This document shows, in pieces, positions 12,320 through 48,800 of a DNA stretch of 64,000 nt (positions within the stretch are counted from its first letter, which is position 1; every line of letters begins with the position of its first letter). The translations under genes and the position numbers were made by a program. The notes below the pieces were generated by a model, which did not search any database, was not told the origin of the DNA, and saw only the letters and a program-made list of their open reading frames with translations. This DNA is from Manis javanica (lineage: Eukaryota; Chordata; Mammalia; Pholidota; Manidae), in NCBI RefSeq assembly GCF_040802235.1, contig NC_133161.1, positions 149,783,121 through 149,847,120 of the forward strand, in the 5' to 3' direction.

Positions 12320-12320
12320 C

Positions 12321-18300: not shown

Positions 18301-19548
18301 CTCTGCAGCTTAGCTGGTTTCCTCTGAAAGACTGGAGGGTTATTTTCTTGCTCAAGGACCTTTTCAAGATGTTAAGTACTAAGACAGAAAGTTTATTTCC
18401 AGTCAAGACTCCTCAGTCCCATGCTAATAAAATCCAGTGTAAAAAAGAAAACGTGGCAGAGTTCAGACCTTCTGGCTCAGTGGGATGTTAGAGAAACATC
18501 TGCCCTGGGGAATGCTGATGAGGTAAGACAATCCGAATGTAAGGGCCTGAGCCACTGGACATTTCTCTTCTTCTTTCTTAGTCACCTCTGTGGTTCACTC
18601 AGACCCTTGGAGGTGTCATTGCCAAACTCGTTTTTCTAGGGTCAGACAGCCCTCCAGAGTACAGGCCTGGTAGCCTCAGAGAAACAATGCCCAAGACAAG
18701 TCCCTGCGTGTGAGAATGACTAGTGCCCCAGAAACCACAAAGATTCAGGGCTTCAGGGGCCTGGCCTGAGCCTCTTTCCACTTCCTTCAAAGTAGGGGTG
18801 GCCATTCTTGGGTCCAGATAGTATCTAGTTATTTTAAGCTTTATATGCTACCTTTGAAATTAGCAACACAAAAATAAAATTGTGCCATTCTGGATCATGT
18901 TTGCATTATTGGTTAAATATATGAAGGATGCAAAGACATCTGGGTGCAGAGTACCCAACCAACAACAAATTCAGTGCTTGTGTGAATTCAGCATAAAGCC
19001 CTTTCCCGTAGGTCTCTCCAGACCTTCAGGGTGTAGTGTTTCTTCTTCTCTGTTCCTCGCTGTTCTGTACCTGCTTGTTTTCCCCCTCCTCTAATACTCT
19101 TCCCTCTTAGGAGTGTTTACTGAATTTTGTTCATGAATGACTGGTTTCTCCAGAGCCCACTCATCATGCAAGAGGTTCTGATGCCGTTTTTTTTCCAGTG
19201 ACAACCACAACCTTGACCTCCACACGGCGCACCTTGACCTCCACACGGCACAGGACCTTGACCTCCACACGGCGCACGGCCTTGACCTCCACACGGCACA
19301 CGACCTTGACCTCCACACGGCGCACGACGTTGACCTCCACAAGGCCCACGACCTTGAAGTCCACAAGAACCACAGCCTTGACCTCCAGAAGAACCACAGT
19401 CTCGACCTCCACAACCCTCAAGAACAAGCCATCCACACACCCCACCCCACCCACAACCAGAAGCTTGGCCAACAGCATCTTCCTTGGCCCAATGAGAGAC
19501 GCCATTCAGCTCCTGCTCGTCTTTCTCACCAGCAAACTCCTCTTCTAG
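12380..19548 (+). CDS. PLET1: Placenta-expressed transcript 1 protein (PLET1), intact, 4 coding exons
   Basis: PLET1 is a GPI-anchored surface glycoprotein of trophoblast and epithelial progenitor cells. Coding exons are 12,380-12,557, 16,304-16,505, 17,321-17,382 and 19,199-19,548. All introns are GT-AG and the frames join to 264 codons (263 residues). The first ATG opens a clear signal peptide (hydrophobic core LFLLGLGLCLGVLFA, residues 8-22). Exon 2 carries the conserved core with HWQKADEYCNSSALYH and DSHWGLFQADWVSPNST. N-glycosylation sequons include NNT, NSS (twice), NST and NVT. From residue 149 a tandemly repeated Thr/Ser/Arg-rich stalk follows, then a hydrophobic C-terminus (DAIQLLLVFLTSKLLF) fitting a GPI-attachment signal. 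The stalk makes the protein longer than orthologues I remember (about 210-240 residues). The identification rests on recalled family sequence and on its place next to PTS. Confidence 0.9.
12935..13560 (-). repeat. Cluster of antisense MIR fragments in PLET1 intron 1
   Basis: Three antisense MIR copies lie close together, at about 12,935-13,050 ('gagagacgctaaatgacttg'), 13,150-13,340 ('tagttagtcctcataatgac') and 13,385-13,560 ('cattgcacagatgaggactg'). All are old and diverged. Further MIR-like text occurs in this intron near 14,600-14,760 and 15,885-16,025. Confidence 0.55.
16030..16215 (-). repeat. Old LINE-like fragment in PLET1 intron 1
   Basis: The words 'ttggaaaacaccaaaagagc', 'tcatctataaccccaccacc' and 'aaaaatggggccataccata' follow the pattern of a common antisense L1-related repeat that also appears at about 61,020-61,420. 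It ends about 90 bases before PLET1 exon 2. Confidence 0.4.
17900..18015 (-). repeat. MIR SINE fragment (antisense)
   Basis: 'ggtgacttgcctaggaccac' followed by 'aaatgggaaaccgggactca' is the reverse-complement MIR core. It lies in PLET1 intron 3. Confidence 0.5.
19199..19548 (+). CDS. PLET1: PLET1 last coding exon with mucin-like repeat and GPI signal
   Basis: The exon opens after 'ttttttttccag' in the frame that completes Val148. It codes TTTTLTSTRRT, then repeated TLTSTRRT-type octads to about residue 220, then a Pro/Thr-rich linker and the hydrophobic tail up to the stop at 19,546-19,548. The Thr/Ser density suggests an O-glycosylated stalk lifting the conserved domain away from the membrane. 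The regular arginines are unusual for a mucin stretch. Confidence 0.85.
19208..19418 (+). repeat. 24-bp coding minisatellite in PLET1
   Basis: Nine head-to-tail units share the core 'ttgacctccacacggcgcac'. They start at 19,213, 19,234, 19,258, 19,282, 19,306, 19,330, 19,354, 19,378 and about 19,402. The period is 24 bases except for the first step, which is 21. Units 1-5 are nearly identical and units 6-9 progressively diverge, which suggests recent expansion at the 5' side. All steps are multiples of three, so the reading frame is kept. Confidence 0.9.
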
Positions 19549-23319: not shown

Positions 23320-26300
23320 CTACTGTCCCTTATAGACCACACTATTATTGTCAGTTTCATAGACTTTTACTTTATAAAGAACTCCCACAGGAAGTAATTT
23401 CTGGAGGCTTTCCCAGATATATACAGCTACATTTTCAGTCGTGCTGCAGGAAAAAGGAGAGAAGATGAAAAGGTAAATAAAACTTCAGGATGAATATTTA
23501 CAGAGCACAGAAATTCTAGTTTTAAAAGATCATGTTGAATTAAACTTTGGAAATCACACAGCAATCAGATAAAATGTGACATCAATCCACCTTTCTTACT
23601 CTTCCTGAAAGGCAACATCAGCACTCACCTTACGGTGTCTGTAAAGTACGGCACATCCAGGTCCAGATTCTTATGATCAAGAGGCTTCATGATTGCCTCC
23701 TACGGACAAAAGAAAGGGAACCTCATGACCCCATTCACACTCGAATTCCAAAGTGCTCCATCTCTGCCCCTCGACCTTGTCGTGAAGATGCCTGAGCATA
23801 CCCGTGTCTTACAAAGCGACCTCAAAGTTTGAAGCTGTAAAATGAAGTAAGGCCCAGCTCTCCGTAATGACTGGTCACTCATTACTGAATGCAAAGTAAA
23901 AAGACCAAAAACTAGAGAATCCACTGGAGCTTTCTTGTAACAAGCCACTGTGTGATTCAGTAACTCAAGTGTAATTCCCTTCCCAAATTCTGTCCAAAAA
24001 GCTGCAAAAAACACTTCTCCATGACAATCTCACCTTCTGCACATTGCCACATTGTCATTAGGACAGAGATCCAGTGACTACTACATTTTCTAAAGGACTA
24101 AGATTAAATTATGTAAGTAGTTCGAAATTTCCGTTATGGGGAGTAATTTAAAGAATGATTTTGGCACTTCAGAGGAAAAAATAAGTATGCGAAGACTGTT
24201 TGTTTCTTGATGCTTATATATATTAACATAGTTTTTTTCCTTGCCAATAGGAAGAATTGTAATTGCCTTATCCTTTTTAATGTCTTACTTTAGCTATTTC
24301 TCAAAGCATCTGTGAAATAATCTAATTTTCCATATGGCATGGCTTCAAAGGGACCGTAATAACAGCAGTTATTTTTTGAGGCAAACATACAATCTTATAA
24401 AAAGAGTAAGTCCTAAAACAAACAGCCTTTAAAATGGATCAAATAAAGGGCAGTTCCACACAGATTATCAAGAAAATAAGTATCTTTATTTTATCTTCGC
24501 TTACAGTTCAGGTATCAGGTTTTCCATTGAGGCTCCCTCTACAGGGCTCTTTCTGACTTGTATACCACGAGGAGTCACTTTTACTGATGGGAGTGTGTGG
24601 GGTCCTTCAGGTATACAAAGGTGGGGAAAGCAGAGAACCACTCCTCTAATATCTAATCATATGCTTGTTAGGGACATTTCATTTGTTGCACTGTACAATG
24701 CTGTGTATGTATTTTATGTCCCCAGTAAATGCAAAGCTGTAGTTTTCCTTAAGTGCTATTTGCTCATTCACTCACTCTCTTACTCACGTATTACCAACAC
24801 TTACTGAGCACTCTTACTACTGACCTTCTAGGAAAAGCAGCAGAAACACTCTAGGTCATGCTATGTCCCGCTCATTTTTGTAGCTGAAAGACTGATGCAA
24901 AGCAGACAAATTTGTTGAATACATGGGTGACAAGTAATGTGTTAGTAATGATTATTAATAACAGCGATTTTATGAAACAAATGTCACATTTTAGAACAAA
25001 AGAAGGAGCAGAGCTTAAGTGAAGAACCAAGTAAACACGTGAAATGATGGCATAATAAAACTAATCTGGACAGGAGGAAATGTGCTCCCAACTTTGTAAA
25101 GGACAAATCACATAACCTGGGGCAACCTGGTCAAATGGTCAGCATCTCTCAATCTTAATCTATGGAATGAAGAAGTTGTCTTAGACAATCTTTAAGATCT
25201 CTTACAATGCAAAAATTCTACAACGATACAATCAGCAAGTCCTTATCAAAGAGCTGCATCATCCCTAAGATGAACTGCCGCAGAGAGCTTCTCCTAAAGC
25301 TAGAGTGACTGTAACAGTACCGGCAAATCTATGATCCAAAGCATAAGGGCGATTCAGAGAAGAAGCTGTATCTTGAAAGAAGGGTAGAATTTGTTAAAGG
25401 GAGGAAATGAGGATATGCCAGCAAGGAATACAAGGTGAACAGGCTACAATTACTCCCAATACAGAAATACAATGGTGCTAATTTCCATCAGTCACCCGAA
25501 CATCTTTAGAAGAACCTGAGAGTACTTCCTCCAGCTGCTCCCCCCCTCCCACACCTGAGTCCACTCACAAGGTCACAGAACCTCTGAGGATACTTGCTTG
25601 GGGAACGAAAACGAGGTCATCAAATATTACAGTTAGAGGACAGCACATTATAAAAACCCAACATGGCATTACCTCCATATGCTTTTTGAGGTCAGTCAGA
25701 TTCATAACCATTCCTGTGACAGGATCAATCTAAGGAATAAAAAAGGTGAATATTACTATGCTACACTTTTCACACTTAAACCTCTGGTCAATTAGTCAAG
25801 GTTGTATGATGTGCAGAAACTATGGCCACATTCACCTTCATGGATCTCAGCAGGGACACACCAGTGCTGAAGGCACCCCCTGCACTGTACTGCCCTTCCA
25901 CCTGTCCCCATACGTACGGCACATGAAGCTAACACTTGGGGAGAGCACAGATCTAGAATGGCAGCTGCTCACCAGACACAAAGGCCAAAAATGAAGCAAT
26001 ACTGAACTGAGCAGAATTTTTCAACACAGACTCCATCATGTTGGCTGAAAAGGGCCCAACAGTCTGCACAAACCACAGGGGTATTTTTGTTCAGCACATA
26101 CCTCTCCATGTACTGTCACCTCAACTGTGGGGAAGAAAACAAAATATCAGTAAAACAGCATGACTGTCAACAGATTGGCATCCAAACCAAGTTAGCAACA
26201 TATATTAAGTGTTAGACCTCTGCCCCACAAAACTGTCTTTATATTTTCCCCAAAAATCCGTTATTTTAGTTAAGATCATTTCATAAACCAAAACAAGACT

Positions 26301-28026
26301 CAAGCAAGACAGAGGGGCTTAGCCAAGGCCAAAAGGGTGTCAATTCTGCTTACAGTGTTGACACACTAGGGTGGGACTCTCCACTAGGCTCAAGATGCTG
26401 CTCAGCCACTGCCTGTAAAAGCAGAAAATGAATGGGAAGAGGTCCAGCTATCCATCCAGCTGGTCCAATTCAGGGCAGTACCTCTCTGAACAAGCAATTT
26501 GCTTTACCTACATGAATGTATAAAAGTTTACATAATGCTTGGTAAATTAACAAGTGCTTATATGAAGCATTTGAAAAATCATGGTGACCAGTGTTTTACA
26601 AATTGACAACTTTTCTTTTTCAGCTCCATGAGCAAAAGAAGAAAAATCAAGTAAGAGGCAGCAACTCAACTAGAAATCGTCATCTTCTGATGATGCTTTT
26701 TCTGGTTTTTCACTCTACCATAAGCACACGCTGTGGTACCTACCCTATGGCTACCATAGCTGGTTTCTGAGACATCAACTATATCTCAAATAATCAAGTC
26801 TCTTATGTTTGCATAAATTACTTTCTTGGAACACCACTGGCAACGTTAAGACCTGCTCCACCTTCCTATCATGCAGCATATTCCTAAACAATATTCCCCT
26901 TTTGTCAGTCATTATTCAAATAATACGATCTAGTTTTAACATTGGCCTCAGTAATACCTAACCAGAAAACACGGTGCCAAAAAGATCTTATGCTGCTAGA
27001 GACTAAGGAAAAAGTCATTTGCACCATTCACTGCTACGCGCTGTCCGTAACAGAACGATACAAAGTGAAAACGACACACGCGGCCACCGCAGACGGTTTC
27101 ACTCCGAATCCCACGTAACTCCTCCCTCAAGGCCCAAGGCCTCCGGCCCCTTCCCCGAGGCTCGTAACTCTAAAATCTCCGGATTTGAGGAGCCCTCTCC
27201 CACCCTCACTGGAAAGGCCAAACTTCATCCGTTTTTCTCTCACCTTTATAATTGTGACCATGGCCATTTGGATTGTTACATTTCCCAAACAGTCTCAAGT
27301 TTTCTTGATTACTCAGAGATTTGCTGACCAAAAAAAAAAAAAAAAATGTCAGCGTGGACAAGCCCAGCCGCCTCCTCTCCCCCGCCAGCTGGTAGCTGCT
27401 CCGGCCTTTGAAAACGGGGAGTCCTCGTCTGCCTGCCCGGCTGTGGTGTGAACCGGGGCGCGCCCCGCATCAGACCGGGCACCGCACCGCTTGGCACAAA
27501 TCCCACAGCCGGTTCCGCCCTCCCGCCCGTCTCGGCCCTGCGCACAGCTTCCTGGCCGGGCGAGGACCCGACCCTCGGGGCGCCGGCGGGTGCGCGGGGC
27601 TGGGGGGGGGGCGCTCCTTAACCGCCTCCCGGTGCCCCAGGGCGGCCGAGGGCCCGGAGTTTAAGCGACACATGCTGGGGGCTCGGAGCCGCCGCCGAGG
27701 GCCCCGGGGGCAGCGCAGCCCGCCCGGCTGCTCCTCGCGGCCACACCCAGGGCCGCAGGGCCCCCACGGAGGAACCGCGCCTCCCGGGAGCGCGCGAGGC
27801 CGTCGCCCGCAGTCACGTTCCCGCCTCCCCCGGCGCTGGCGCGACTCACACCGCTACCCCGCGTCATAGGGCCCAGCGGCCGCTCCCCGACTCGCACGCC
27901 AGGCCCCAGTTCCCTGGCCTGAGGGCACCGCGGCACAACCCACCTGTGCAACCGGTGCGTCGCACTGAAGGAGACGAGGCGGGTCACCCGCGCCCCGCGG
28001 GAACGGCCCGAGCCCACCGAGTTCAT
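23320..28026 (-). CDS. PTS: 6-pyruvoyl-tetrahydropterin synthase (PTS), intact, 6 exons
   Basis: PTS converts 7,8-dihydroneopterin triphosphate to 6-pyruvoyl-tetrahydropterin, the second step of tetrahydrobiopterin synthesis in the cytosol. Exons in transcript order are 28,026-27,944, 27,323-27,244, 26,124-26,102, 25,729-25,673, 23,699-23,629 and 23,443-23,320. They join in frame to 146 codons, giving 145 residues, the same as human. Zinc ligands His24 (SATHRLH), His49 and His51 (NGHGHNYK) are present. So are the catalytic Cys43 (FGKCNN) and the DH pair at 89-90 (PLDHKN). The C-terminus reads [16 protein letters not shown] and keeps the conserved Glu of VYETDN. All splice sites are GT-AG. The start ATG lies in a CpG island. 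The N-terminus is diverged from human, as usual for this family. Confidence 0.96.
26102..26124 (-). CDS. PTS: PTS exon 3, a 23-bp microexon
   Basis: The 23 coding bases (VEVTVHGE together with neighbouring exons) lie between 'ttccccacag' and 'gtatgtgctg' on the minus strand. The human gene, to my knowledge, also has a 23-bp third exon. Skipping it would shift the frame. Confidence 0.9.
27244..27323 (-). CDS. PTS: PTS exon 2 with a T-run acceptor
   Basis: The exon codes the segment ending in [15 protein letters not shown], which holds the catalytic cysteine and two zinc histidines. Its acceptor polypyrimidine tract is a pure run of 17 T (plus-strand A at 27,330-27,346) followed by 'ggtcag'. 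Such homopolymers vary in length, so splicing strength could vary between alleles. Confidence 0.9.
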
Positions 28027-30035: not shown

Positions 30036-30194
30036 TCAGATGGTAACGAAGGTGCCATGGAATCCATAAGGCATTTTCACAGGCACCTCTGCTCGGCCCA
30101 GTTCTTCAAAGTTCTTGGCATCCAAGACTAGAAGAAAATTGCTTTCATTCTAGAAGAAGAAAAACAATACTGAAATTTCTTTTCCTATCAAAAC

Positions 30195-30315
30195 TGTCTC
30201 TACTGGGCTGTAAAATCCCTAAGGAAGAGACCAAGCCATCTCTATATCCATCCCCAGCACCTAGCATGGTGCCTCCTGTCTGTCCCTACACTAAATTTTT
30301 GCTGAATTGCTGAAC
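30195..30315 (+). repeat. L2 LINE 3' end fragment
   Basis: 'gctgtaaaatccctaaggaa', 'ccatccccagcacctagcat' and 'ggtgcctcctgtc' follow the sense L2 3' end. It lies in the last BCO2 intron. Confidence 0.55.
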
Positions 30316-30839
30316 TGGACTGAAAAGGAAATTATGGCTAGAGAAGTTCATACCAACAGGAAGAAATTAAGTTGTTTATATCAATCACCTTCATAGGATG
30401 TCTTTGAGTTTAAGGGTCTTTTTACCTGCCCAATTTTAATCTCTAAGAAAAAATAGATATTCTTTCTCCCAAATTAAAAATGCCTCCATTTTGTGTTACT
30501 TTGGAGCTTTTCGAAAGGTGGCCTTGCAAGGCCAACTGAGGTTTGGCCTGGTCTAATTACAGGAGTGGCAAGTGCAAGATATGAAGACTAAGTCCTCCTA
30601 GGCCCATGGCAGACATTACTAATTGCACACAGCACCTTTCTTAACAAATCCTTGTAAAAGCCTCAGAATCCTACACCCCAGGCAGCCACAAATAACGGAT
30701 ACAAGTTGAAGTGAACCCATTTGCCAAAAGATAGCCCTTGACAAGAAATTAGATATCAACATTACTGAGACACTAATTCAGGGCTTGTGACCTAGTGACC
30801 CACATTAGACTCGGGTTAATCAGCTGAAACTGGCAGCAC

Positions 30840-31015
30840 AGATGGTGGTCCTGAGATTTAAGTTCTGGCTGTACCATTATGAGATCTGATATAAGTCCCT
30901 TTCAACTTCTTTAGGTTACAGATACTACATGTGTAAAATGGTAATCTACAAAGTTGTTTTGATGACAACTAATAAGCTAATATGTATGAAAGTAGTTTGT
31001 GAGTCAGCTGTGCAA
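30840..31015 (+). repeat. MIR SINE fragment (sense)
   Basis: 'aagttctggctgtaccatta', 'ataagtccctttcaacttct' and 'tgtgtaaaatggtaatctac' occur in MIR order. The copy is diverged and lies in the last BCO2 intron. Confidence 0.5.
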
Positions 31016-32029
31016 ATGTGAATTATTATATGGCTCTACGAATAGAACTTTAAAATAACAGTCAAGTATGGATTATGATGAAAGGGTATGTATATAGTAA
31101 AGAGAGGGAGGAAGGGGAGAAGGTGCCATCTTGGAATCAGACTTAACTATCAACAGCATCACTAAACACAACCTCACAGGACTCAGTGCTACCTTTCTGA
31201 GAAGTAACAGGGAAATACATTTACCTGGTTGGGGGTGATCACTGTAGAAAGAATAATCCCACCATCTTCTTCATTGGCTCCTGGTACTGTAACAAAAACA
31301 GGCTCTGAGGGATAAAAACCATCTTCTCTCCAAACCTGTAAGTCCCAAAGAGACTGTGTGATTAAAGGTTAGTTATGAGCTAGACGCCTTCCATCGCTTT
31401 TGCTCCCAGCATGAACGTGGCTGTCGGTGTGATATTCCAGCAGTGAGACAACCATGCCTGGAGCCTTTCAGCTTCAGATCCCACTGCCATCAAACACAGG
31501 TGTTCCCTTAACCTGAAATACAGGTGTCCCAGTACTCTCCAGATAACACCAAACATAGAAGTATTTTTCTGGGCTTGTAGTACATTTAGATTCCCTAGAG
31601 GGAACATACCCTGAACCTAGGTGATTCCATGGTTCACAAATTTAATGAAAGTAAATGACAGAGCTGCTTAAATATTAAAGAATCTAAAGAGCTACCTTAA
31701 AAATGAAACTACTTGAAGTTTAAGACCTATACATGCTTATGTTACTCTACAAGAAGATATGTCAAAGAAATAATCAATCTTCCCATGTTTTCTTCCGTCT
31801 GCTACTTCTATAGCTTTTCTTCTTCCTTCCTAATTACAACCCTTTGGTGGAATTCGTGCCTCATATCAAAAATTACCAAGTATCATAATTCTTCCAAGTG
31901 GTAAAGATACCTCAAGACAAACGCTGGGCATAGAAGCCACAGGGCATAAATCTGCAAAGAAGTAAAAAGCTAACCTTTTCAAAGAATATTGCTTCTCTCT
32001 CTCACTTACCAACTTTACATTTCCCTGTA

Positions 32030-32680
32030 TGGCCCCGGAAGATGGCTGGTCAGCCAGAGACGGGTAAGATTCCTCAAGGGAGGAACAACCTAAGACAAGC
32101 ACAGTCGCAGGGGGGCCATCAGGTGAGAAACTGGGGATCAACAGAGGTGAGGCTCAGAACCTCACCCCCCTGTTTTGAGAGAAATCTTCTGCATCCGTGG
32201 ATGTTTTGTTGCCCTTGTCTAGCTTGGATTAATATTTAGTCTTTAGGCACACACCTGATCATCTACAATTGCCCTCTTACAGCACTAAATTATGTTTTCT
32301 ACCTTTATCTTGCATCTACCTACCACTTCAGCATTTTATTTAAAAATAATAATAATAGTAATAAGGGAGAAATGTGGGATTCACATATAAATCAAGTATA
32401 AAAATCAAACGAATAATCATATCTGACTTGTTTATAGTTCATGATGTGTGATCAAAACCAAAAGTTTCTGTGATATGACTGCCCTTGTACTGTTCACCAT
32501 GTAAGAACTTGTTCACCATGTAAGAACTTGCTCGTTATGCTTCAGAAGATTGGAGACTGTTGAGAATTGGGCTTGGAGTTGATTAATGATTGTGCATTGA
32601 GTCCCCTGTACAGAATTTTATAGTTGTTAACAACCATTTGATCAATAAATATGAGAGATGCCCTCTCAAAAAAAAAAATT
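32030..32680 (+). mobile_element. Poly(A)-tailed retroposon with an LTR-like 3' part (fossil)
   Basis: An inserted unit ends with AATAAA (32,644-32,649), a short tail and poly(A). Its 3' third (about 32,373-32,668) begins TG, ends CA and follows a purine-rich stretch (aagggagaaa), as an LTR and its polypurine tract would. The upstream part is unrelated and may be a spliced leader. This is the architecture of an endogenous-retrovirus-derived transcript copied by L1, similar in principle to the SINE-R part of SVA. A 5'-truncated copy of the same 3' end lies at 46,200-46,285. The family name is not known to me. Age looks moderate, because the tail is still clear. It is a non-coding fossil. Confidence 0.6.
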
Positions 32681-32949
32681 AAAAAAAATAATAATAATTA
32701 CAAAAAATAATACATAAGAATTAAAATTGATGAGTATGACAAATAAATAAAATAACAATGTAACAGAGAATGTGATCTGTGAATATAATCAAAGTAAATT
32801 AGGACTTAATTTGTAAAAATAAAAAATAAAAAAAATAAGCTGCTTCCATGTGCCAGACAGTGAACTCCCCCATATTTGTTTTCTGCAGCATTCTAAATTT
32901 CCTTTACTTACAATCTTAAAAATTCAAGTTTAAGAAATACACACTGAGA

Positions 32950-33365
32950 ATCCCTATCCTCTTACAGGAGACGACCCCATCTGAGTTCCCTTTCCTCCTC
33001 CTCCCCGTCTCCATTGAGGCTACGCAGGTCCTGACCTGCCCGTGGTCCGGGGTGGCCATCCGCCTCAAGAAGCCAAGCAGAGGGTTTGTCTTCTGGGAAG
33101 ACAAAGTCATCGTCTACTCTGAAAAAGCCTCCTACCTCAGTGGCTTTGGCATCTTCCAGGAAAGGGAGGGCAGGGGGTGAGGCCTCCTGCATCTGGGCTT
33201 TCAGTTGAGGTAGAAAGAGAAGAGAGTGGCTGTAACAAGAGGCTCCAGAGGGGGATGCAGTGACCCCCAGAACTTGCCACTGTTGACCCGCCCCGGGCTT
33301 CATGACAGTCCTAGCGGTGGATTCCTTAGTGATACAGTAACTATGACTTCCAAAAAAAAAAAAAA
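32950..33365. other. Unidentified GC-rich segment ending in poly(A)
   Basis: This 400-base block is much richer in G and C than its surroundings and ends in 14 A (33,352-33,365). It could be a retrocopy read on the plus strand, but neither strand gives a protein I recognise. A 164-codon minus-strand frame crosses it without familiar motifs. It lies where BCO2 exons are missing. I saw no clear target-site duplication. Confidence 0.4.
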
Positions 33366-35614
33366 TCCCCATGATGCCTGTGAGCCAAAAGCACAATGAA
33401 ACTTGGGTCGTGCTAAAAATGTAACACAGAAAACCAGCTGCTAAGCATAGGTGCAAAAGTACCGCAGAGCATACTTACTGTTAAATTACGTGCTTTAAGT
33501 TCAGTAATGCCACTTTGGAGATTTCTTTCCGACCCTGCAAATGCAGTTTCCTATGTTTCCATCTTATAATGGAACCCTAAGAAGACAGTTAACTCCCAAT
33601 TATTTTAAAAAGATCTCCCTCCCAACTTTACCGTGCGGCCCATAGGAGTTGCCCATGTTGAATGTGGTTCCATCTGGGTCATAATGAGGATGTGCAGTTG
33701 CACCACTCACAGCGATGAATTTGCTCCAGTTGACCTGCAAGTGCAAGACCATCAGAGACATTTACTCTCTACTCAGATGCAGAGACAGTAGATGTGTCAA
33801 TTACATTTAAAATAAGATATGAAAACTACAGTCTGAGTAAGCCCTAATATCTCACCTTTGAGAAATCATAATTACTTTTGCTACTAAAGAAAAAGCAACT
33901 AAGACCAAAAACAAAACAAAAAAACCACTACTACCAACAACAGAAAAATGATTACCCAGTAAGGATATTTTTTTGCCGAAGATTACAGAGTTCAAAAGAA
34001 TAAGAATGTGACATTCTGGTCTAAAGTTTTATTTTATTTCTAATTAAGGTGTTAATAAGCAAAGGCAGCAGGGCCTAGACAATCTCCAGCCCAGTTCTAC
34101 CTGTAACCTGGAAGAACTTGAACTGGCCAAGTAAATCTGTTCTACTATTTCTCTTTTACCACAGCATTCAGGTATTAGGGCTCAGGAAGCAGAAGTCCAG
34201 AATTTCTTTAAAGAAAACCAACCCCACAGGCCATTCTAACCAGGACAGAGGCGCACAATGACCTCAGTCAGTGGGTAACTCTCTTTTTCTCTGGTTAAGG
34301 GGAAAATGTCTTCTTTAGATATCTACTACTCTAAAAAGTATTCTGAATGGCAAAAAATTTTAGGGCCTATTTTATTCATTTTTAGCCTATACCTTACCTT
34401 TTCTGTTTTTTCCAGGGTTTCAATGTCCACTTTATTCATAAAGTTGGTCTCAGTACTAACGTAGTAATCACCCTTGTACCGCACGTAATTGACATTGGTG
34501 TTGTCTGTCATTGCTGAAACAAACCCCAGAGTTATTTAAAAACACTGTAACTTACTGTGTAGCAGACTCTAAGCACACTGTCAGAGGGAGAATGCAGTTT
34601 AAACATCCTCTCATGCCAAAAAAATACATTAATTTCAAAATTTATACTTATACAGGTTGCCATATTTCATAATAATTTAAATAATCACTATCACCTGCAA
34701 ATTCTGGGTATATTAGAGGCTGCTTACCAGGCGGCTCAAACTTTGACATGAAATGCTCAAAAACATTCTTGCATGGGTCAGGAAGAGCCAGTGTGCCAAA
34801 TTCTGAGATCACAATTCGATTATGAACACTGTTGGCCTCATATGTATCACTCTGTAGAAACTTGCTCCTGTATGTCACAGTGCCCTTCTCCATGCTGAAT
34901 TGGTGAAGCAAAGCCATTCCATCAAACCAGTGATTATACCTTCAAATTGGAGCAAAAATAGAAAAACAAGTATTAGTAAGAAAAGCATGGGGTCAAAATG
35001 AGAGATTTCAAACTTAAACAAGATCGAGATAGGTTTCCAGTACAACCTGACCATCCAGAGAACTTGAAATTAAGAGGTGATAACTTTTGAGTACATACTG
35101 GACTACAACAGGAAAAGCAACTTACATTCTCCTGATTCTCATACCCTTTCAAAAAGCTCCCACTTTAGAGAGCTAAAGAAAAACCTTATGGTGACTTCTA
35201 AGTTCATTCCAATCTTTACCCTGTAGGCAGAAGAACAGCATGAGAGGATATGGGATGCTTGACATTTCCCAAATTAAAATGGGTTCCTAAGATTTTAGAA
35301 ATCGTTATCTTCATATTTAATATGTATTACATCTTCCATTTACTTTTAAAATTTTCAAATTTATCAAAATTATGTCAAAGTAATCAAATAGGATGACTGT
35401 CCTTACTGGATCATCATTTACGTCCATCTGCTCACACTAGAATGAATGACAGAACATCGAAAACCTGTAAGGTAATATTTGTGGCTTTACCTTTAAAAGG
35501 GTCTACATCATATAGCCTTTTCTTTTCATATCCTTGAGAAACTGAATGCTTAATATCTTCAGCATGGAAAAGCAAGGCTAACAAATCATTGTTTTACAAG
35601 GCAATGTCCCTTCT

Positions 35615-36033
35615 AGAGGCTATTATGCTAAGTGAAATAAGGTAGGCAGAGAAAGACAAATACCGTATGATTTCACTTATTTGTGGGACATAAAAGCAAA
35701 ACAAAACAAAATGAATGAAAGAACAGTAGATTCACAGACACTGAGAACTGGCTGGTGGTTATGACAGCGGAGGAGTTGGGGTGAGTGGGTGGGGAGGGGG
35801 AGAGTGATAAAGGGGCACAAAAATTCTCAATCATAATGTAAGTTGGCCACAGGGATGGTAGTACAGCACAGAAAATACAGTCAATGATTCTGTAACATCT
35901 TCCTATGCTGATAGTAACTGCACTTGTGGGAGTAAGGATTTAACAATGTGGGTAACTGCTGAACCACTGTGTTGTATATTTGAAGCCAATACAAGATTGT
36001 GTAACAATGACACTTCAATATTTTAAAAAAGGT
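35615..36033 (+). mobile_element. L1 LINE 3' end (sense)
   Basis: The piece starts in the terminal ORF2 region ('gctaagtgaaataaggtagg', 'accgtatgatttcacttatt') and runs through a 3' UTR with 'gggagagtgataaaggggca' and 'caagattgtgtaacaatgac' to an A-rich end. It is 5'-truncated and dead. It lies in BCO2 intron 2. Confidence 0.8.
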
Positions 36034-36035
36034 AA

Positions 36036-36530
36036 TGGTCCTAAAAGCAGGGACTCAAAAGAGATATTTGCACACCCATGTTTATAGCAGCATTATTTAC
36101 CACCCACCAAAAAGTGGAAGCAACCCAAGTGTCCATCAACTGATGAATGGATAAATACAATGTTCACATACAATAGAATATTATTCAGCCTTAAGAAGGA
36201 AATCCTGTCACATGCTACAACATGAACATTAAGGATATGCTAAATGAAATAAGCCAGTCGAAAAAAGACAAACACTGTATGACAGCATTTACATGAGGTA
36301 TCTAATAAGTCACTCAAAGAAACAGAAAGTAGAATTGGGCTACTAAGGGCTAGAGGAGGGGCAATTGGGGAACTTTTGTTTAATGGGTATAGAGTTTCAG
36401 TTTTGCAAGATGAAAAAGTTCTGAGGATCTATTTCACAGCTATGTGAATAAACTTAACACTGACATGTACATTTAAAAATGGTCGAGATGGCAAATTTTA
36501 TGGGGTTTTTTTTACCACAATAAAAAAAAG
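36036..36530 (+). mobile_element. Older L1M LINE 3' end (sense)
   Basis: Typical late ORF2 text is present ('tttatagcagcattatttac', 'aagtgtccatcaactgatga', 'gaatattattcagccttaag'), then a decayed 3' UTR ending in 'ttaccacaataaaaaaa'. It directly follows the preceding L1 in BCO2 intron 2. Confidence 0.75.
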
Positions 36531-36544
36531 GCCTACTTTTTCCA

Positions 36545-37355
36545 GTGATTTGAGATGCCATCTGTGCCATAAACTAAATTTCCATAAACTGTTGGGTCTA
36601 TTTCTGGGCTTTCTATTCTGTATCAACTGACTATTTGTCTATTCGTGCACCACTATCACTATTAATTATAAAGGCTTTATAGTATATCTCAATGTTTGGA
36701 AGGGCTAGTCCTCCCACTGAAAGTTGTCTTGTCTAGTGTTTTCTTCACTATTATTACATGTTTGTTTTTCTAAATGAACTGTAGTGTCGATTTTACCATC
36801 CTTAAAGAACCTTTGGGAATTATATTAAGATTGTATTAAATTTAAAATTTAACTTAGGGAGAACTGACATCTTATTGATGTTGAATTCTCCTATTCAAGA
36901 CCAGAAGACGTCTTCCTATCTGTTTAATTGTGTCATCCAGGAGTGTTTTAAAGTTTGCACATTTCTTGTTAAGTTCATTGGTAAGTATTTAACCTTCTTT
37001 GTTGACACTGTAAATGAGATTCTTTTCTACTGTTACATTACCTAACTGGTAATTTTTCCTATATATGAGGGCTATTGATTTCATCATGCTATTACACCCT
37101 GTCACCTTGTATTGACTTACAGTTTTGTCATTGATTCTCTGGTTTTCCAAGGTTACTACAATCCTCTGCAAAAAGAGATAGTTTAACTAATCCTTGGGCC
37201 TTTGACCAATTTCTTTAATCTAATTGCATTGGTTACATCTGTTGAACTGCAGTGGAAATACTGACCATCCTTTTCTTGTTCCTGACTTAGAAAAAATACT
37301 TGAAGTGTTTCCCCATTTAGCATTACTGATTTAAGGACTAAGATTAATATATATG
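36545..37355 (-). mobile_element. L1 LINE ORF2 fragment (antisense)
   Basis: Antisense ORF2 text includes 'tataaaggctttatagtata', 'cctatctgtttaattgtgtc' and 'tgcaaaaagagatagtttaa'. No 3' end is present and the frames are broken. It is an old internal fragment. Confidence 0.65.
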
Positions 37356-37465
37356 AATGTGTATACAGACACACACACACACATGTATTATGTATGCATG
37401 CATATATATACATATACAAATATATGTGAATATATGTATGCATGTATATATACATTGTACATATA
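37355..37465. repeat. TG/CA and TATG microsatellite tract
   Basis: Alternating (CA)n, (TATG)n and (TA)n text covers about 110 bases between two L1 fragments. Length variation is likely. Confidence 0.75.
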
Positions 37466-37815
37466 CACACAATGGAATATTATTCAGCCATTAAAAGGAA
37501 ATCTTTACTATTTGTGGCAATATGGATAGACCTGAGGGCATTATGCTAAGTAAACAAGTCAGACAGAGAAAGATAAATATTGTATGATCTCACTTAATTG
37601 TGGAATCTAAAAAAAAAACCTGAACTTGTAGATAGAGAGAAGACTGGCTGTCATAGGTAGGTGTGGGTGGTGGGAGTGAGCAAAATGGGTCAAGGGGGTC
37701 AAAAGATACAAACTTCCAGTTATGAAATAAATACGCCATGAGGATGTATTGTCAGCATGGTGAGTACAGTTATGTCCCTGGTAGATACAGAAAAGTGATG
37801 CACTGAAGAGTTACT
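37440..37815 (+). mobile_element. L1M LINE 3' end (sense)
   Basis: 'ggaatattattcagccatta', 'gtatgatctcacttaattgt' and the 3' UTR words 'gatgtattgtcagcatggtg' identify a truncated L1. It completes a cluster of four L1 pieces in BCO2 intron 2. Confidence 0.75.
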
Positions 37816-37819
37816 GTTT

Positions 37820-38100
37820 TTTTTTTCATTTATTTACATATATTTATTGAGTGCTATTTAAGGGCAGAGCACTGTCCGCGGTGTCAGGGATAAGAGGTGA
37901 GTAAGAGAAAGTCCCTGCCCTGTGGAATTTACACTCTAGTGGGGAAATACAGCTAATAAATAAACAAGCAAAAAATAGTAGACATTGACAGTGCTGTGGA
38001 CAATTACATAGGTAATACAGTAAACAATCACATTTTAGATTGGGAGGTCAGAGGGCTTAAAGGATATGAGATCCAAGCTGGTATCTGCATGACAAGAATC
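37820..38100 (-). repeat. L2 LINE fragment (antisense)
   Basis: 'tttattgagtgctatttaag', 'gtccctgccctgtggaattt' and 'acactctagtggggaaatac' form the familiar antisense L2 block. Boundaries are approximate. Confidence 0.5.
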
Positions 38101-38557
38101 ACACTTGGGGAGACGGATGGGAGGACCAATGCCAAGACCCCCTGAAAAAGTAAGTGGTGCCTGGTTTGAGGAACTGAAAGAGCCACTGCGTCTGGGAAGT
38201 ACTGGGTAAGGGAGTGGTGTGAGGTGAAGACACTGCTACGTCCTAAAGGAACGTGTGGTGAAATAGAGCTAGGAAGTCACAGGCAGTTCCTGACACACCT
38301 CTTTTGGCCTAAACCTTTACAGGGCTTCAAATTCGTAATACTCTGCAGGGAAGAAAAGTCAGGACTTTTCAAAAGAATTAAGTATTTTTTTTTCTATAGA
38401 CTACATTTTCCTCACCTGTCATCAAAGAGACTTATCAATCAAAGGGACTGTAATCATGGCAGTATTAGCCTCGGATCGGAAGCAGATATTAATGCATATT
38501 CCAGAGAAACCAGCCCTTGCTAAGAAATCCAAATTGTTCCCCAAAATCAAGACTTAC

Positions 38558-38759
38558 TTGTCCTTCCCAAACTCAAATTTCCCAGGTCCAATTCGAAGCA
38601 GAGAACCATTGAGCCACTTAGGGAGATGTCCTCAGACTCGAGCAGAGGTCCACAGAGTCTCCTGCACTGTGGCCAGTAGTGGTGCAATACATGGAAGATT
38701 CTGTCGTTTACTAAAAATGGCTTTTTTCTGATGAGTGTTTTCTGTGTACTTCTTCAAAA
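38558..38759 (-). pseudogene. BCO2: BCO2 exon 2 with in-frame TGA
   Basis: Both splice sites and the reading frame are kept (phase 1 in, phase 2 out), and the residues after the stop still match the family (GHLPKWLNGSLLRIGPGKFE). The TGA at 38,634-38,632 replaces a conserved Trp codon, so one G-to-A change suffices. Any product would stop after 71 residues, before the catalytic domain. Confidence 0.9.
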
Positions 38760-39784
38760 CTGTAAAAGGAAATCAAAAACGCAAAAAATTATACCCATTT
38801 TGTATAAACATGCCTGCTTTTCCATAGACAGTAATTGTATCTACTGCTAAGGGAAATGTAAAGCTAACACCAAACATAGCTTCCAGATTCCTCTCTCTCC
38901 TTCCTCATTCTCAGACCATCACCCTCTGGTTCTCCATTTTTGAACCACAATCCTTTTTATATTTTTGCAGTACAAACCTGCCTAAGAATTAATTCAGGAC
39001 TTTAATTACTATTATCATTTCTCATACTTGAATAATGCTCATCTTTTCAGAAGACTGACTCTATCTATGCTAAGCCTAAATAGCAACTTCATTATGATAA
39101 AAATAACCACCATTCAATATATTTAAACTTGACCTCAATACTTTAAACACACTAGAATGTGATACCAAAGGTTTCATAGTGATTTACAGGAATTTGGCAA
39201 GACTGACAATTTAATTTCTTCTATTTTAATGGCATACACATGAATGTACATGGCATTTTCTGAAAGGGAGTCATAAATTAAGTTCTGCAGTGGCACCTGG
39301 TCTGAAATTACTTAAGAGTTCAAAAGCCTCAAGAAGAATAAAATCATAATTACATAATAAAGAGCTAAAAATTGTCCCTATTATTTCATACTAATTTTGT
39401 GTTAACAAGGCAGAGGGTGGTCAAATATATAATTAACTAGATACTATAAAATAGTCCTTTATTTCATAAAATTTTAATAGTGATATAGAAGTCTAAACTG
39501 GAAAAACATATAGTGATATTATTCCTCTGAAGAAGTGAGATTTACATTCTTCTGGCAGAGTAGTTTGTATTTTATCTATCACCCCACTTCATTTAAATCT
39601 TTCAAAAATTCAGTTTAGAGCACAAGACCTCCTACTTTCCTGTATATAACAATTCAGTCAAACCCAACTATTTCCTGATTTCCCAAATTAAATTCACTTC
39701 TACCCTGAATGCCCTGCCTACTTAAATCTATCCCTAAGAAAACTGTTTAAAGTGTGTATCAAATGCTAATCCTTTTAACAGGCA

Positions 39785-40035
39785 GTGCAGTGTAATATTT
39801 AGGAACAGGGACCAGGCTCTGCCTAGCTGCAGATTTCTTGAGTTCAAATCTTGGCCTGCCATTTTCCAAATAAATAGCCTTGAGCATGACAATTAACCTC
39901 TCTGTGCTGTATTACCTCCTTTCTAAAACGAGTATAATTATTCTTATTGTTCTTAAGACTTTTATATTGTCATTTGTAAGTAACAAATGAGTTTGGTTAT
40001 GTAAAGTTCCTAGAACACAGTAAATACTAAAAAAG
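39785..40035 (+). repeat. MIR SINE (sense)
   Basis: 'gggaccaggctctgcctagc', 'gagttcaaatcttggcctgc', 'tgacaattaacctctctgtg' and 'ttcctagaacacagtaaata' lie in MIR order across nearly the full element. It lies in BCO2 intron 1. Confidence 0.75.
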
Positions 40036-41139
40036 TGAGCCATTATTACTTACGTAGTTTTTAATGATCAATCCAACAAGATGTAGTCTTCTTTCTTTGA
40101 ATTATTTAATCGTTCTACAAAGTAGTAGGCGTTACATTAGATCCCTGATGTAAAGGAGCTCACTGCCTAGCAAACAAACATACAAACAGATCATTTCTAC
40201 TGCGATCGGTGTTGTTGGACACATTACTGATCACTCTGAGCCTGAAGTTTCTCAGTGATGAGGTAGGGATAAAAGGAGGATAATACTTCCATTCATGTCC
40301 ATAATCATAACCCAGTATAATAGTAGCTAACTTCCAAGTGTTGATTCCCGTGGCTCCTCTTCCCTTTGTCACCTTATGAATGTGCTCCTAAGGACTGACC
40401 TTGGATCTGTACTCATTAACCTCAGCACCCTTCCTTGGTAATCTCTTTTAGTCCCATAATTTCACCATTACTTCTTGCAGGTGACTCAGTATGTCCAGAG
40501 GGAATTCTTCATTGTCTCCCTTCCAAATCAGTTTTCCCACTTGCTAAATCACCTAACTTCAACATCTCTGTGGGCCCTGAATTCATCTTTCTTTGCTGTC
40601 CCCACATTCACAAATTAAATTCTGCTAACTAGACCCACAGGGCTAGGAAGAGGATGCTCAGGGGCTGACAGAGGGCAGCCAGGATGCCTCACTAGGGATC
40701 ACAAGTTTGCAAGGGTACCTGGGGCAAATCCTCTGTAAAGATTTTTACCAGTGCACCAATCCTGAGAAGCGCCGCCCTCCCCCCATTTTCCTGCTGGCCC
40801 AGAACTGTCCGCATCAGCTCTGATGGTTCAACTCTTGCCATCAGTCCCTTCCTTCCTACTGTCCCAGGTTAGGCCCCCCACAACTTTGTAATGGGTCTGA
40901 TCAGAAGGAGAAACTAGACAGAGTAGCCAGAGATTCCTAACTGGTGGCTTCTTGGTCCCTTCAGCCCCTGGGATGGCCAAAGGCCCCAGGTCAATCGCTC
41001 CCAGCTCTAAGCAGCTCATCTGGACTCCAGCCACCACCAGGTCTACTCTAATGTGAGGTAAAAATATTATCACTTTCTACATGTGCTCTGATGTGAAAAC
41101 AGCTGGGAAGGACTGTTACTGAATTAATCTCCTAAGTAC

Positions 41140-41685
41140 AGACATGACTGTATCATGTATTCCCCCAGAAAACCTTTACAAATCTTTACAAATGACTCCC
41201 CACTGTCTACCAAGTAAACTCTAAACAGCTTGGCCAGGTACGGATGAAGGCCCTGAATTCTCACACCGCCCCACTCATCCAGTCCAGCCACTCACTAATG
41301 CCTTCTGCCCCAGACAAACTGGGCCACTCCGCAATCTCTTCTCCTTATCTAACATACCCTTCTCTTCACTAGGATATTTCCCACCTCCTTCAGGTAAAAC
41401 CACTTCCCTACTCATCCTTCACGATCCAGTACCCATGTCACCCGCTCCCTGACACAACACTCCCATTTCCTATGGCAAGAACTGATTCTCCTTAGCTTGA
41501 ACTCACACAGCAAATGTTTAGCTCTCTTATGGCACTTATTCTGTGTTGTGAAATATGAATATACTTTGTAAGGTCTACTGCCAGTACTCCCTGAGTACGG
41601 GGTCTTGGTTTTTGTCCCACCCCAGTACTTACCACACTGCCTTGCAAACTGCAAACACTGAATTATTGAATTAAATAATTGTAAA
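41140..41685 (+). repeat. L2 LINE 3' region (sense)
   Basis: The string of L2 markers includes 'tgactccccactgtctacca', 'ccactcatccagtccagcca', 'ggatatttcccacctccttc' and 'cttattctgtgttgtgaaat', ending 'gaattattgaattaaataat'. It lies in BCO2 intron 1. Confidence 0.65.
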
Positions 41686-42299
41686 GTGTAGACTACATAT
41701 CAGTATGATTTTTGATAGCTCTAATGAACCAATTTCAAGAATAAAATGATGTGACAAAATGAGCTGCAATAAAAAGCTACAAAACAGTAAGCAAAAAAAA
41801 AAACAGAGGCTCTAAGGCAGTCCTCCAGAACACAAATGGAACCAAACACATACACTGGAATGCGCAGCAGTGATTCTCATTTGAGGAAGGTCTGAACAGT
41901 GAATGTTTTTCCTATTGCAGCTCCAAGAGAATTCCTAACCCTGAATCCCACCCTACATGTTGTACAAGATATACAAGTAGAAAGGCTGTCTCCCTGGCGA
42001 CAAGTAAACAAATCCTGACTCAGTCCTCTTCAGCTCCCAGCTCTGCAGTCTCGCTGCCTGTGTATCTGCTCCACACAGAGCAGAAACCTTCAGAAGCCCC
42101 CAGCGCTCTCCAGGAAAGAGGCACAGAACTCTTAAGTCCAGACTGGTGGGAGGAGGAAGAGGAGGGGGGAGAGGGACAGATCCCTCACCTGGGACCCGCC
42201 ACATCAGAACAGAAAGGAAGCCCACTGCAGTGGCCGGAAGATTGCTGACAAAATGGAGAAGGATTTGAAAGAACATTTTTGTATTGAGCTCAGCAGCAG

Positions 42300-45105: not shown

Positions 45106-47233
45106 TTAATTGTGCAGTGTGTTTGCAATCACTGTAAACCTCTGTCTGAGGAGTTCTCTTTTTTGTATTAGAAAGTTTTCAATAGCACTGGCTTCTTTGA
45201 AGAGTCCATCTATCTCGACAATGTAAGATGCATCTACTGCTGCTCTTTCACTAATGAGGAAAAAAATGTTTTATGTCAAACTAAATCATTATAATGTCTA
45301 AACACACTATCAGTGACGTTCTTTATTACGCTATATTTGTTACCTATTTTATACAAATGGCTTTGTGCATCAGAAACCTTCATTAAATTACAAATACTGT
45401 TCAGTAAAAGGTAAATTAGTCCCACAGTATTTTTGACTACTCAGTCTCCTGAGATAGCAGAATGCGTATCTCAAACATAATTCTAATATTAAACTATGCA
45501 CACTATTTTAACAGCCACACAAGACATTATTCAGATACAATGACTGACCAGTAGTTTAAAAAAACACCTTATAAAACATGACAGTCTCAGGCCAGTAAGA
45601 TATTTAAATCCAGCCTTCAACTACACAAAGGTAATATTTGAACTATTTCATAAACACATTTATCTTCAATATCAGTCTATTATTGTCACTACCCTCACCA
45701 AATGGCATTTTTCTCAAAGAGTTTTTTATTTTCATAAAATTTTAAATGTTACATCATCTAATTAGAGACCAAAATATATTCAGCCTCATATTAGCTCTGG
45801 TAAATAGCAAGACCATGGATGTTGAGTAGTTGAGTAGAAAAGTTGGGGTTATTCTTTCAAAATAACCAACTAATCTTTGGTTGGTATAATCTAATAATTA
45901 TAAGAAAGTGAGAAATTTTAAGAAACTAAAAAAGTTCCAATTTGTGACTTCTGGGTAGCCTTTGCAGCCACTGAACTAAGCTTCCCATTATGGAGTTTCC
46001 AGAAGGAAACTTCTATTTCTAAGACAAATATTCAAGAGCATATACTAAAAGTACTTGCCTTAAGATCTTCGCATATGTAGACAACATTAGATTAATTTCT
46101 TTGCTCAAATCTGTTCAAAAAAACAATCACTAAGTAAGTTATGAACTGCAAGAAACTTTCTGGATTATAAAATTAATGTATAGAAATATAAGTACTTTCA
46201 TTGAGTCCCCTATACAGAATTTAATTGTTAACAACCATTTGATCAATAAATACGAAAGATGCCCTCTCAAAAAAAAAAAAAAAAAGAGAGAAATATTAGC
46301 AGTTTATACATCACCATTCAAATCCTTCTCCAGGGCTTCATCTTTATAAAATAGTCCAGAGCTTTCAGAGAAAGAGGAATCTGATTTCCCCAAAGAGGAC
46401 AGTTGTGGACTATCTGGCATTTGAGGCTAATGGCAGAAAGTAAAGAAAATAGGCAAATAAGTAACAAAATCATTAGGACATATGCATTCTGGGAAAAAAA
46501 AAAGGCAAATAAAACATCTTTGAGAAAAAAGCAAATATACTAGACAGTATATGCTCTTGCATCCTAATTAGCCATTTGGAATTATATTATCAAGGAAACT
46601 CTGAGGTCCAAGAAGCACCTTGCTCAACAAATGAAATTTTTTTTGATTTTACATTAGACTTTGAAAATGGTATTAATTCCCTGACAAAAACGTTTCCTGT
46701 GTCTTGAACCAGTAGGTATTTTCATAGCAATACAGCAAAACTTTCATTTAGACGGTACCCAAGAGCTCACAAAACTTTGCAACATAATCTTTAATGGAGC
46801 AAATAACGTCCCAAATATAAACAGATTAATCGGTGGGGGCAGCAGCGAAGGCCAAGATACAGGGCTCTCCACCTACAGTTCGGAAGCACCCGACGTATTT
46901 TTAGCAAAATACTTAGAGTGCCATTTATGACAAAAGCTTGTATCCACCTCGGTCTTTTGATCACAAATCACCACCAAGAACTCTCCCCCCGTTTCCTCGA
47001 GGCCTTTACACGCTTGGTCGGAAAACGGGGAATCAGCAGAGTTCCTGCCGGGGCGATTCCGGCTCTGGGAATATGAACCCATCTAATTCCTTTTATCAAA
47101 AGAACTTTCTTACACGTTAGAAACTTGAGAGGAATATACAATAAGAGATTAGGGCTCCAGGAGCAGAGATTACCTCCAGGTCTCTCGGCCTCTTGCAGTT
47201 TCTGGCATCAGGTTTAACCAGGTGACCCGCCAT
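45106..47233 (-). CDS. TEX12: Testis-expressed protein 12 (TEX12), intact, 4 coding exons
   Basis: TEX12 is a meiotic coiled-coil protein that pairs with SYCE2 to form the fibrous central element of the synaptonemal complex. Coding exons in transcript order are 47,233-47,174, 46,426-46,315, 46,110-46,059 and 45,250-45,106. They join to 123 codons, giving 122 residues (human 123). The N-terminus is [20 protein letters not shown]. The helical core reads [15 protein letters not shown], then [16 protein letters not shown] and [20 protein letters not shown]. The C-terminal helix is [19 protein letters not shown], ending IANTLHN. Human starts with two Met codons. Here the first is GTG, which explains the one-residue difference. 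Intron 3 has a GC donor. A non-coding first exon probably lies in the CpG island upstream. Confidence 0.95.
46059..46110 (-). CDS. TEX12: TEX12 exon 3 with GC splice donor
   Basis: The exon codes [16 protein letters not shown] and ends AAG before 'gcaagtac'. The first two intron bases are GC, with an otherwise perfect donor consensus (AAG|GCAAGT), as expected for functional GC-AG introns. No GT donor nearby preserves the frame. Confidence 0.85.
46200..46285 (+). mobile_element. 5'-truncated copy of the 32-kb retroposon family (fossil)
   Basis: Only the last 70 or so bases of the element at 32,030-32,680 are present, including AATAAA (46,245-46,250), the ending 'agatgccctctc' and a fresh poly(A) run. 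The 5' truncation and tail fit copying by L1 machinery. It lies within TEX12 intron 2, about 30 bases from exon 2, and is non-coding. Confidence 0.7.
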
Positions 47234-48800
47234 CACACGTCGGAGGCAAGAGCTGCGAAATCGAGAGCGAAGCCCAGTGGGGACGCGGCCTCGGCGGCGC
47301 GGCCCCGATTCCTGCCCTGAGCTCCGGCCCTCGCCCCCCACTTGCCCCGCCGCCGCTTCCCCGGGCGGCTCCGACCCCACGGACGCAGGGGGCCGCCGGG
47401 GCCGAGCACGTCTGCCCGGCGCCGGCCTGGGCTCGAGGCCCCCCTGACCTTCACTGAACCCCAACGCTAGCAGGTCTTGCAGTTCATCTGATTCCGTCTC
47501 ATTCGCACGCAGGGCTCGGAGGGCTGGGCGAGTTCGAACACAGCGGAACCGGGCCGCCGAGGGCCAAGACGCACCGGCCCGGGGGCTCCCGCCGCAGGGC
47601 AGCGCCGGACTTCACTTCCCCGCCAAGGGCCAGGGAGGACCCGGCGCGCACGGCCCCCGTTCGCCCTCAGGCCCGCGCCTGCCCTGCTCTCCGGGCCTGA
47701 ACACCCGCGCCCACGGGGCCGGGCAGGGCAAATGCGTGGTGCCGCCGGCACCGCCGCCCGGGCCTCCCGGCGCCCTGTCCTCGCCCTCGCGCAGGGCACG
47801 GGATGGGTGGGCAACTTCCAGAACCGGGTCGCTCCGTTTCTGTACAACTACATTAGCCTTCCTGTCAGGGTGGCAGGGGAGCCCAGGCCTGGCCCGGAAG
47901 CGGGCCTCGACGCGGCCCAACGCCGCCTCCCGCCGCGGCCCAGGCCGCGCAGGCGCAGGCTTCGGTGGCCGCACTACTAAGCGACTTGGCCTCACGCAGC
48001 CTCCCTCTCCTCACCACTCGGGACGCCCCGGGCCGTTTCAGCCCCCATTCTCCTCACTTCCCGGCCCGCTCTTTCCTCCATGCCTGTTCCGGCCCCACCA
48101 AAGCCCCTCAGGGCAGGCGCCCGCCGCCTCCCCGGGCCTGCTCCTCGCCTCACGGGCCGCCTCCCTCCAGCCCCACCCCGAGACCAGGCTACACGCGGCC
48201 GCGGGACCTTCTCGTCAGCGGGGGCGCAGGAACTGAGACGCCGCGCGTGCGAGGCCGCAGAACCCGCTGGGGCGGCGGGAGGCACGCGAGCTCCCAGCGG
48301 GCCGCGCGGGCATCACGTGACGGGCCGTGCGCGCCTCCCGCCCGTCCCCTCAGCGGACAGTCGTCGTGAGACGGGAATCTCCGCTGAGCGCACGTGTGCG
48401 GGGGTGGGGGAGGGGACATCCGAGCCCGGGCTCTCCCGGCAGGGCAGGGGGAGTCGCCGGGGCCCGGCCGGGGTGTTCCCGCCGCCAGGAACCCGTGCAG
48501 GGGCCCGCACGGGTGCGCCTTCCGCCGACTCGGGAGGGTCGGTTTGAAGGAAGGCGCGGCCCAGCGGCGAGCCTCCGGGACCCAGGGCCCGGCGCCCTCC
48601 GCCTCCTCCCGTGGCACCGGCCTTTCGGCGGCCTCTCCGCGGCGCGTCCGCAGGCAGCTTCCAGGCCCGGCCCACGGGCCGGAGCTCAGCCTCGCGGGGC
48701 GCCGTCGGCTGCCGACTTTGCCCTGCAGTTTCAAAGACAGGCGCCCCGGGCCCCCGCCCGGTCGGGGTACACGGGCACCCAGAGCCTATCGCTCGTAAAA
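47220..48800. promoter_or_regulatory. TEX12: CpG island at the TEX12 5' end
   Basis: About 1.6 kb of very CG-rich sequence starts at the TEX12 initiator exon and extends upstream. A plausible acceptor ('atttcgcag' on the minus strand, before 47,252) would join an upstream non-coding exon to the exon with the ATG. Many long frames overlap on both strands and none resembles a protein. For a meiotic gene the island is probably methylation-controlled, but that is inference. Confidence 0.75.

Follow-up and report, generated by a model that had tools for sequence, protein, structure and literature searches.

The window analysed here, a stretch of 64,000 nucleotides of the Malayan pangolin (Manis javanica) assembly GCF_040802235.1 (contig NC_133161.1, positions 149,783,121 to 149,847,120), carries the sole BCO2 locus that we could find in this genome, and we hold with high confidence that this gene is a unitary pseudogene that has lost its function. 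The evidence supports two independent disabling lesions, namely a premature stop codon in exon 2 and the absence of the central exons, which make up nearly half of the coding sequence, and of the features expected from a working enzyme the locus lacks both an open frame through the fold and the full set of four iron-binding histidines. A previous inspection of the letters without database searches (the sequence-only reading) had claimed that 9',10' cleavage of carotenoids by BCO2 is lost in this species, which we regard as very likely in view of the two lesions and the two lost histidines.

The gene is situated on the minus strand, where it begins with the ATG at 42,276 and ends with the stop at 30,036; these limits coincide exactly with those of the sequence-only reading. 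The human BCO2 protein was compared with the window exon by exon using tblastn. As a check on this query, the four published iron-ligand numbers all fall on histidines in it. Human residues 1-246 and 504-579 were matched in this way, and seven coding exons are left, which by position represent human exons 1-5, 11 and 12. Exon 1 (42,189-42,276; 88 nt coding, with the ATG and the donor gtgagg) was matched by tblastn over residues 1-29, exons 2 (38,558-38,759; 202 nt, bearing the TGA) and 3 (34,728-34,939; 212 nt) were placed by tblastn and the exon map, and exon 4 (34,398-34,513; 116 nt) by tblastn and alignment. They are followed by exon 5 (33,632-33,734; 103 nt, with the equivalent of His226), exon 11 (31,225-31,335; 111 nt) and exon 12 (30,036-30,149), which ends in the normal stop and holds the equivalent of His573. 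Exons 3, 4, 5 and 11 are free of visible lesions; at the junction of exons 3 and 4, four residues (GKAA) of the human protein are absent from exon 4. With boundaries set from the sequence, all six donors are GT, all six acceptors are AG, no frameshift occurs, and the TGA in exon 2 is the single premature stop of the kept exons.

The identity to human BCO2 in the tblastn matches amounts to 52% in exon 1, 70% in exon 2 (69.6% over human residues 30-98) and 78-89% in exons 3-5 and 11. Furthermore, the two concatenated parts of the gene matched the RPE65 family profile PF03055 with E values of 7.4e-44 and 8.4e-23, whereby exons 2-5 (the stop read as X) align with positions 9-172 and exons 11-12 with positions 400-469 of 469; likewise, residues 16-198 and 459-530 of the RPE65 sequence from the PDB were matched. 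In the window, tblastn located TEX12 upstream, PTS downstream and IL18 beyond TEX12, which we take to be the gene order of human 11q23. The locus is BCO2 by descent: the RPE65-family sequence closest to it is BCO2, and it lies between TEX12 and PTS.

The first lesion could be read directly. The TGA at 38,634-38,632 of the minus strand, already noticed in the sequence-only reading, takes the place of codon 72 once the exons are spliced and ends the frame before most of the catalytic fold. It had been said to replace a conserved Trp, which holds within BCO2, where the human protein has Trp at this column (position 73), but not across the family, because human BCO1 and RPE65 have Thr there (the Thr of RPE65 is also seen in the PDB alignment). 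As exon 2 is 202 nt long, skipping it would shift the frame.

The second lesion concerns the interval between exons 5 and 11 (31,336-33,631, minus strand, 2,296 bp), in which exons 6-10 with human residues 247-505 are expected. The statement that no trace of the central exons is left there stood up in the interval, in the window and in the entire assembly. For human residues 247-503, the best tblastn match in the window had an E value of 0.35. The central query (residues 247-505) scored 18.1 bits in the interval and 25.0 bits in the whole window, scores reached by 57 and 11 of 100 shuffled queries, respectively, while the N- and C-terminal parts of BCO2 gave 138 and 75 bits in the same window test. 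The window contains no N. Across the assembly (2,559,957,944 bp in 63 contigs), a check that the sequence-only reading had called for, the central query gave five hits at E <=10, and all of them fell on BCO1 (C17) or RPE65 (C4). Since the same search recovered exons of these paralogues at 33-56% identity (seven of seven candidates scored), BCO2 exons with approximately 80% identity should have been visible. On the basis of tblastn, the shuffle test and the assembly search, we reject the idea that the missing exons lie elsewhere in the window or the assembly. The estimate of about five missing exons also agrees with the 12 exons of the human gene minus the seven found.

Moreover, the PF03055 profile had 19 hits at E <=10 in the assembly, which belong to three loci, the window on C6 (5), C17 (8) and C4 (6), and most of BCO2 exon 3 has a single match. 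The search, which covered the sequence of the 63 contigs other than N, revealed no second BCO2 copy. We reject a retrocopy or second copy, because one locus was found and its introns are kept, with seven exons and canonical splice sites.

Positions 173-399 of the 469 positions of the RPE65 profile, i.e. nearly half, are unmatched at the BCO2 locus. According to the legend of figure 3 in PMC9693266, the iron ligands of BCO2 are His226, His286, His357 and His573. Two of the four are left here (His226 and His573), and His286 and His357 are gone, exactly the loss of two histidines that had been proposed. Beyond the earlier reading, we found that the end of exon 5 (phase 1) does not fit the start of exon 11 (phase 0), such that their direct splicing breaks the frame and runs into a stop at the 21st codon.

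The central exons were thus presumably deleted, and BCO2 transcripts, if any are made, would encode a fragment of 71 residues and would be expected to be removed by nonsense-mediated decay. Mitochondrial 9',10' cleavage of carotenoids would then be absent, and xanthophylls such as lutein would escape breakdown, with BCO1 still making retinal from beta-carotene.

Several points weigh against the reading as a unitary pseudogene. With all 12 splice sites kept and no frameshift, the remaining exons show little decay, which could be read as residual use. The data stem from a single assembled genome, in which the allele may be a segregating one or the assembly may be locally wrong. The main text of a published gene-loss screen that included a pangolin does not name BCO2 (PMC5865188). 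Finally, the reference proteins may contain errors, although the four histidines fall at their published numbers.

Among the competing explanations, it is conceivable, though quite improbable, that the lesions are real but segregating, i.e. that a null haplotype was assembled and other animals keep a working BCO2. In sheep, BCO2 null alleles segregate without harm being reported (PMC2828402; for a second allele PMC8247158), and the good preservation of the kept exons fits such a situation as well. However, two unrelated lesions in one copy suggest that the gene, once broken, persisted in this state until it acquired another lesion, and no further BCO2 copy was detected in the 63 contigs.

An assembly artefact would mean that a collapse or misjoin at repeats removed exons 6-10 and that a wrong base produced the TGA, which we regard as very improbable. 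The interval between exons 5 and 11 indeed consists largely of repeats, but it is bordered by single-copy sequence on both sides in a window devoid of N, exons 6-10 were not found anywhere in the assembly, the same gene would have to contain two independent errors, and the published Malayan pangolin assembly is based on HiFi data with a base quality value (QV) of 55.08 (PMC11825179). That the exon matches of the neighbouring genes are free of stops also speaks against a stretch full of errors. This applies to the exon parts of the tblastn matches of PTS (23,323-28,026, minus strand) and TEX12 (45,112-47,236, minus strand) and to the first coding exons of IL18 (57,623-63,030, plus strand), where residues 1-28, 31-74 and 76-120 were matched; one TEX12 match extends past the exon and meets stops there, and for PTS exon 3 there is only a non-significant match of 9 residues. 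It is equally hard to believe that the shortened gene yields a new non-enzymatic product, e.g. by exon skipping or from a start located further downstream. The preserved reading frames and splice sites in the remaining exons could be claimed for it. However, skipping of exon 2 and joining of exon 5 to exon 11 both shift the frame, positions 173-399 of the 469 in the RPE65 profile (nearly half) find no match, and a short time since the loss accounts for the preservation.

How short this time was can be approximated for the unitary pseudogene. The sequence-only reading had described the exons as hardly decayed and the loss as recent. The absence of frameshifts, the 12 of 12 splice sites, the single stop and the small number of changed family-invariant columns (4/98 in BCO2 versus 3/98 in BCO1, same columns) agree with this description. 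In our age model we considered 942 coding bases, of which 3.3% of the substitutions lead to a stop, 24 splice bases, and 0.08-0.16 indels per substitution (assumed), of which 80% are damaging. For one lesion in the kept exons, the divergence is then at most 0.027-0.041 substitutions per site (95% bound), which corresponds to at most 12-19 million years at a mammalian rate of 2.2e-9 per year. Using instead the values of PMC11825179, 1.47e-8 per generation with a generation time of one year, the bound would become about 2-3 million years. The description is less well supported by the identity to human, where 255 of 314 aligned residues agree in the kept BCO2 exons (81%) versus 239 of 260 in BCO1 at the same columns (92%), and the age depends on the rate assumed. 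This gap is partly due to the leader, which BCO1 lacks, and relaxed constraint could add to it. Altogether, a recent loss of BCO2 is plausible.

The interval from which the exons are missing begins and ends with single-copy sequence. A stretch of 380 bp adjoining exon 11 (31,336-31,715) and another of 262 bp adjoining exon 5 (33,370-33,631) each have one match in the assembly and represent remnants of introns 10 and 5, respectively. Next to the first one, the assembly search revealed a 5'-truncated 3' end of a high-copy family (31,717-32,690, plus strand), which we take to be of the L1 type; its 39 best other copies are 90-96% identical (among the best 40 of 6,173 candidates scored), and a comparison of this end with viral contigs gave no match. 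The A-run of this element is followed by approximately 130 bp and a second A-rich tail (32,689-32,822, plus strand), and this short stretch recurs at C7:132671686 (94%) and C3:170157077 (87%). No L1 was found in the preceding 6.7 kb (C7) and 5.3 kb (C3). The stretch is probably a 3' transduction, whose source L1 would be at neither the C7 nor the C3 copy.

The interval further harbours a dispersed element (32,958-33,362, plus strand) with six other copies of 70-80% identity, which shows long open frames on both strands. One of them, a frame of 70 residues at about 32,965-33,180 (plus strand), had no match in Pfam or PDB and proved to be part of the dispersed element. A target-site duplication beside the ends of the L1 was not found; the best local score was reached by 61 of 1000 random intronic stretches. 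Away from these ends, the longest scattered repeat has 18 bases with 2 mismatches (31,639 and 32,782) and the longest exact one has 10 bases (31,716 and 32,926). An L1-associated deletion of the BCO2 exons is therefore possible but unproven.

The paralogues permit a view on the other carotenoid oxygenases. At C17:58.2536-58.2835 Mb, 11 matches join into an open BCO1 frame of 543 codons, which is identical to human BCO1 at 461 of 547 positions and keeps all four iron-binding histidines. Each of the 10 junctions could be placed, with GT as donor and AG as acceptor, partly by construction, because the joining required GT/GC and AG near the match ends as well as stop-free joins. The exons contain no internal stop, and one of the 11 matches overruns its exon into a stop. 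BCO1 hence looks intact as judged from these matches, which agrees with a screen including a pangolin, where the sperm whale was named as the only mammal without BCO1 (PMC5865188). For RPE65 at C4, nine of 11 matches are 90-100% identical to human, and the other two, with 78% and 65% identity, extend into intron sequence. At E 1e-3, nothing was matched for residues 83-145 and 217-224 in this locus (C4:56316001-56356000), in which runs of N (C4:56334843-56334903 and C4:56339959-56340264) adjoin matched exons. Among the three family genes, BCO2 is thus the only one shown to be broken, with BCO1 apparently whole and RPE65 matched in part. Since BCO1 is open, we reject the idea that carotenoid cleavage was lost as a whole.

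These results also bear on the cause of the loss, for which the sequence-only reading had pointed to a diet poor in carotenoids. Pangolins eat ants and termites, and relaxed selection on a diet free of carotenoids would explain why BCO2 was lost rather than be an alternative to the loss. The loss of BCO1 in the sperm whale may serve as a precedent (PMC5865188). However, BCO1, which acts on the same substrate class, is open with its 543 codons in the same assembly, and no dietary measurement of carotenoids in pangolins turned up in the open-licence literature searched. Because BCO1 is kept, a simple lack of carotenoids in the diet is disfavoured; the dietary cause is not supported by our data and we consider it unlikely. 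Another scenario, tentative and also rather improbable, is that pangolins are natural BCO2 knockouts that keep BCO1. Selection would have maintained the making of vitamin A from beta-carotene, xanthophyll breakdown would have been relaxed or its loss favoured, and the L1 insertion, with its transduced tail and without a recognisable target-site duplication, would have made or sealed the loss by removing exons 6-10.

Similar cases are known from other mammals, and the BCO family has been described as prone to gene loss (PMC5643517). In sheep, the BCO2 variant c.196C>T introduces a stop at codon 66 of 575 in exon 2, and 16 of 18 individuals with yellow fat were homozygous for it (PMC2828402). 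It resembles the pangolin lesion as a nonsense mutation in the same exon (codon 66 versus 72) that truncates the protein. In contrast, the sheep allele segregates in a breed and no deletion is reported for it, whereas the pangolin gene has two lesions and no second copy in the assembly. A second sheep allele carries the retrovirus enJSRV in intron 1 (PMC8247158), again a disabled BCO2 with a mobile element at the site. There, however, the element is the cause and hijacks splicing, while the pangolin L1 is a possible cause only and exons are missing. The sperm whale provides a species-level loss of a carotenoid oxygenase in an animal with a narrow diet, which was ascribed to scarcity of beta-carotene, but it lost BCO1, whereas the pangolin lost BCO2 and kept BCO1 (PMC5865188). 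In Bco2 knockout mice, xanthophylls and other carotenoids accumulate (PMC12225734), which is the state predicted for the pangolin; in the mouse the knockout was engineered, and in the pangolin the accumulation is a prediction only.

In the open-licence literature, with supplements and most subscription journals outside the search, we found no joint mention of BCO2 and pangolin, and of the papers there that contain both BCO2 and gene loss, none announces a BCO2 loss in a wild mammal in its title. BCO2 is also absent from the main texts on gene loss in mammals and in ant-eating mammals (PMC7671337, PMC12906968). An earlier listing of the pangolin loss in supplements or subscription journals is possible. 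That a species loses just one gene for a dietary enzyme, as here, is a known phenomenon. If true, the combination of a lost BCO2 and a kept BCO1 in a wild mammal would allow the role of BCO2 to be tested in nature, i.e. xanthophyll clearing and mitochondrial protection versus vitamin A supply. Pangolins would be predicted to have lutein and zeaxanthin in their fat, plasma or retina, a point of possible relevance for the feeding of captive and rescued animals.

Regarding the rest of the window, none of eight families of young short interspersed elements (SINEs; carnivore, horse, bat, cetartiodactyl, pig, primate, rodent and xenarthran) hit the window at E 0.01, and the MIR control gave nine hits. 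The SINE content of the Malayan pangolin genome is given as 0.96% (PMC11825179). No hits were obtained when the window was scanned against Rfam and for tRNAs. A tandem array with a 24-bp unit, for which the repeat search gave eight overlapping copies of 72 nt, is located at 19,207-19,446 and has open frames on both strands. An open frame at 12,137-12,712 (plus strand) contains a signal-peptide-like stretch and may be PLET1 by its position in the gene order.

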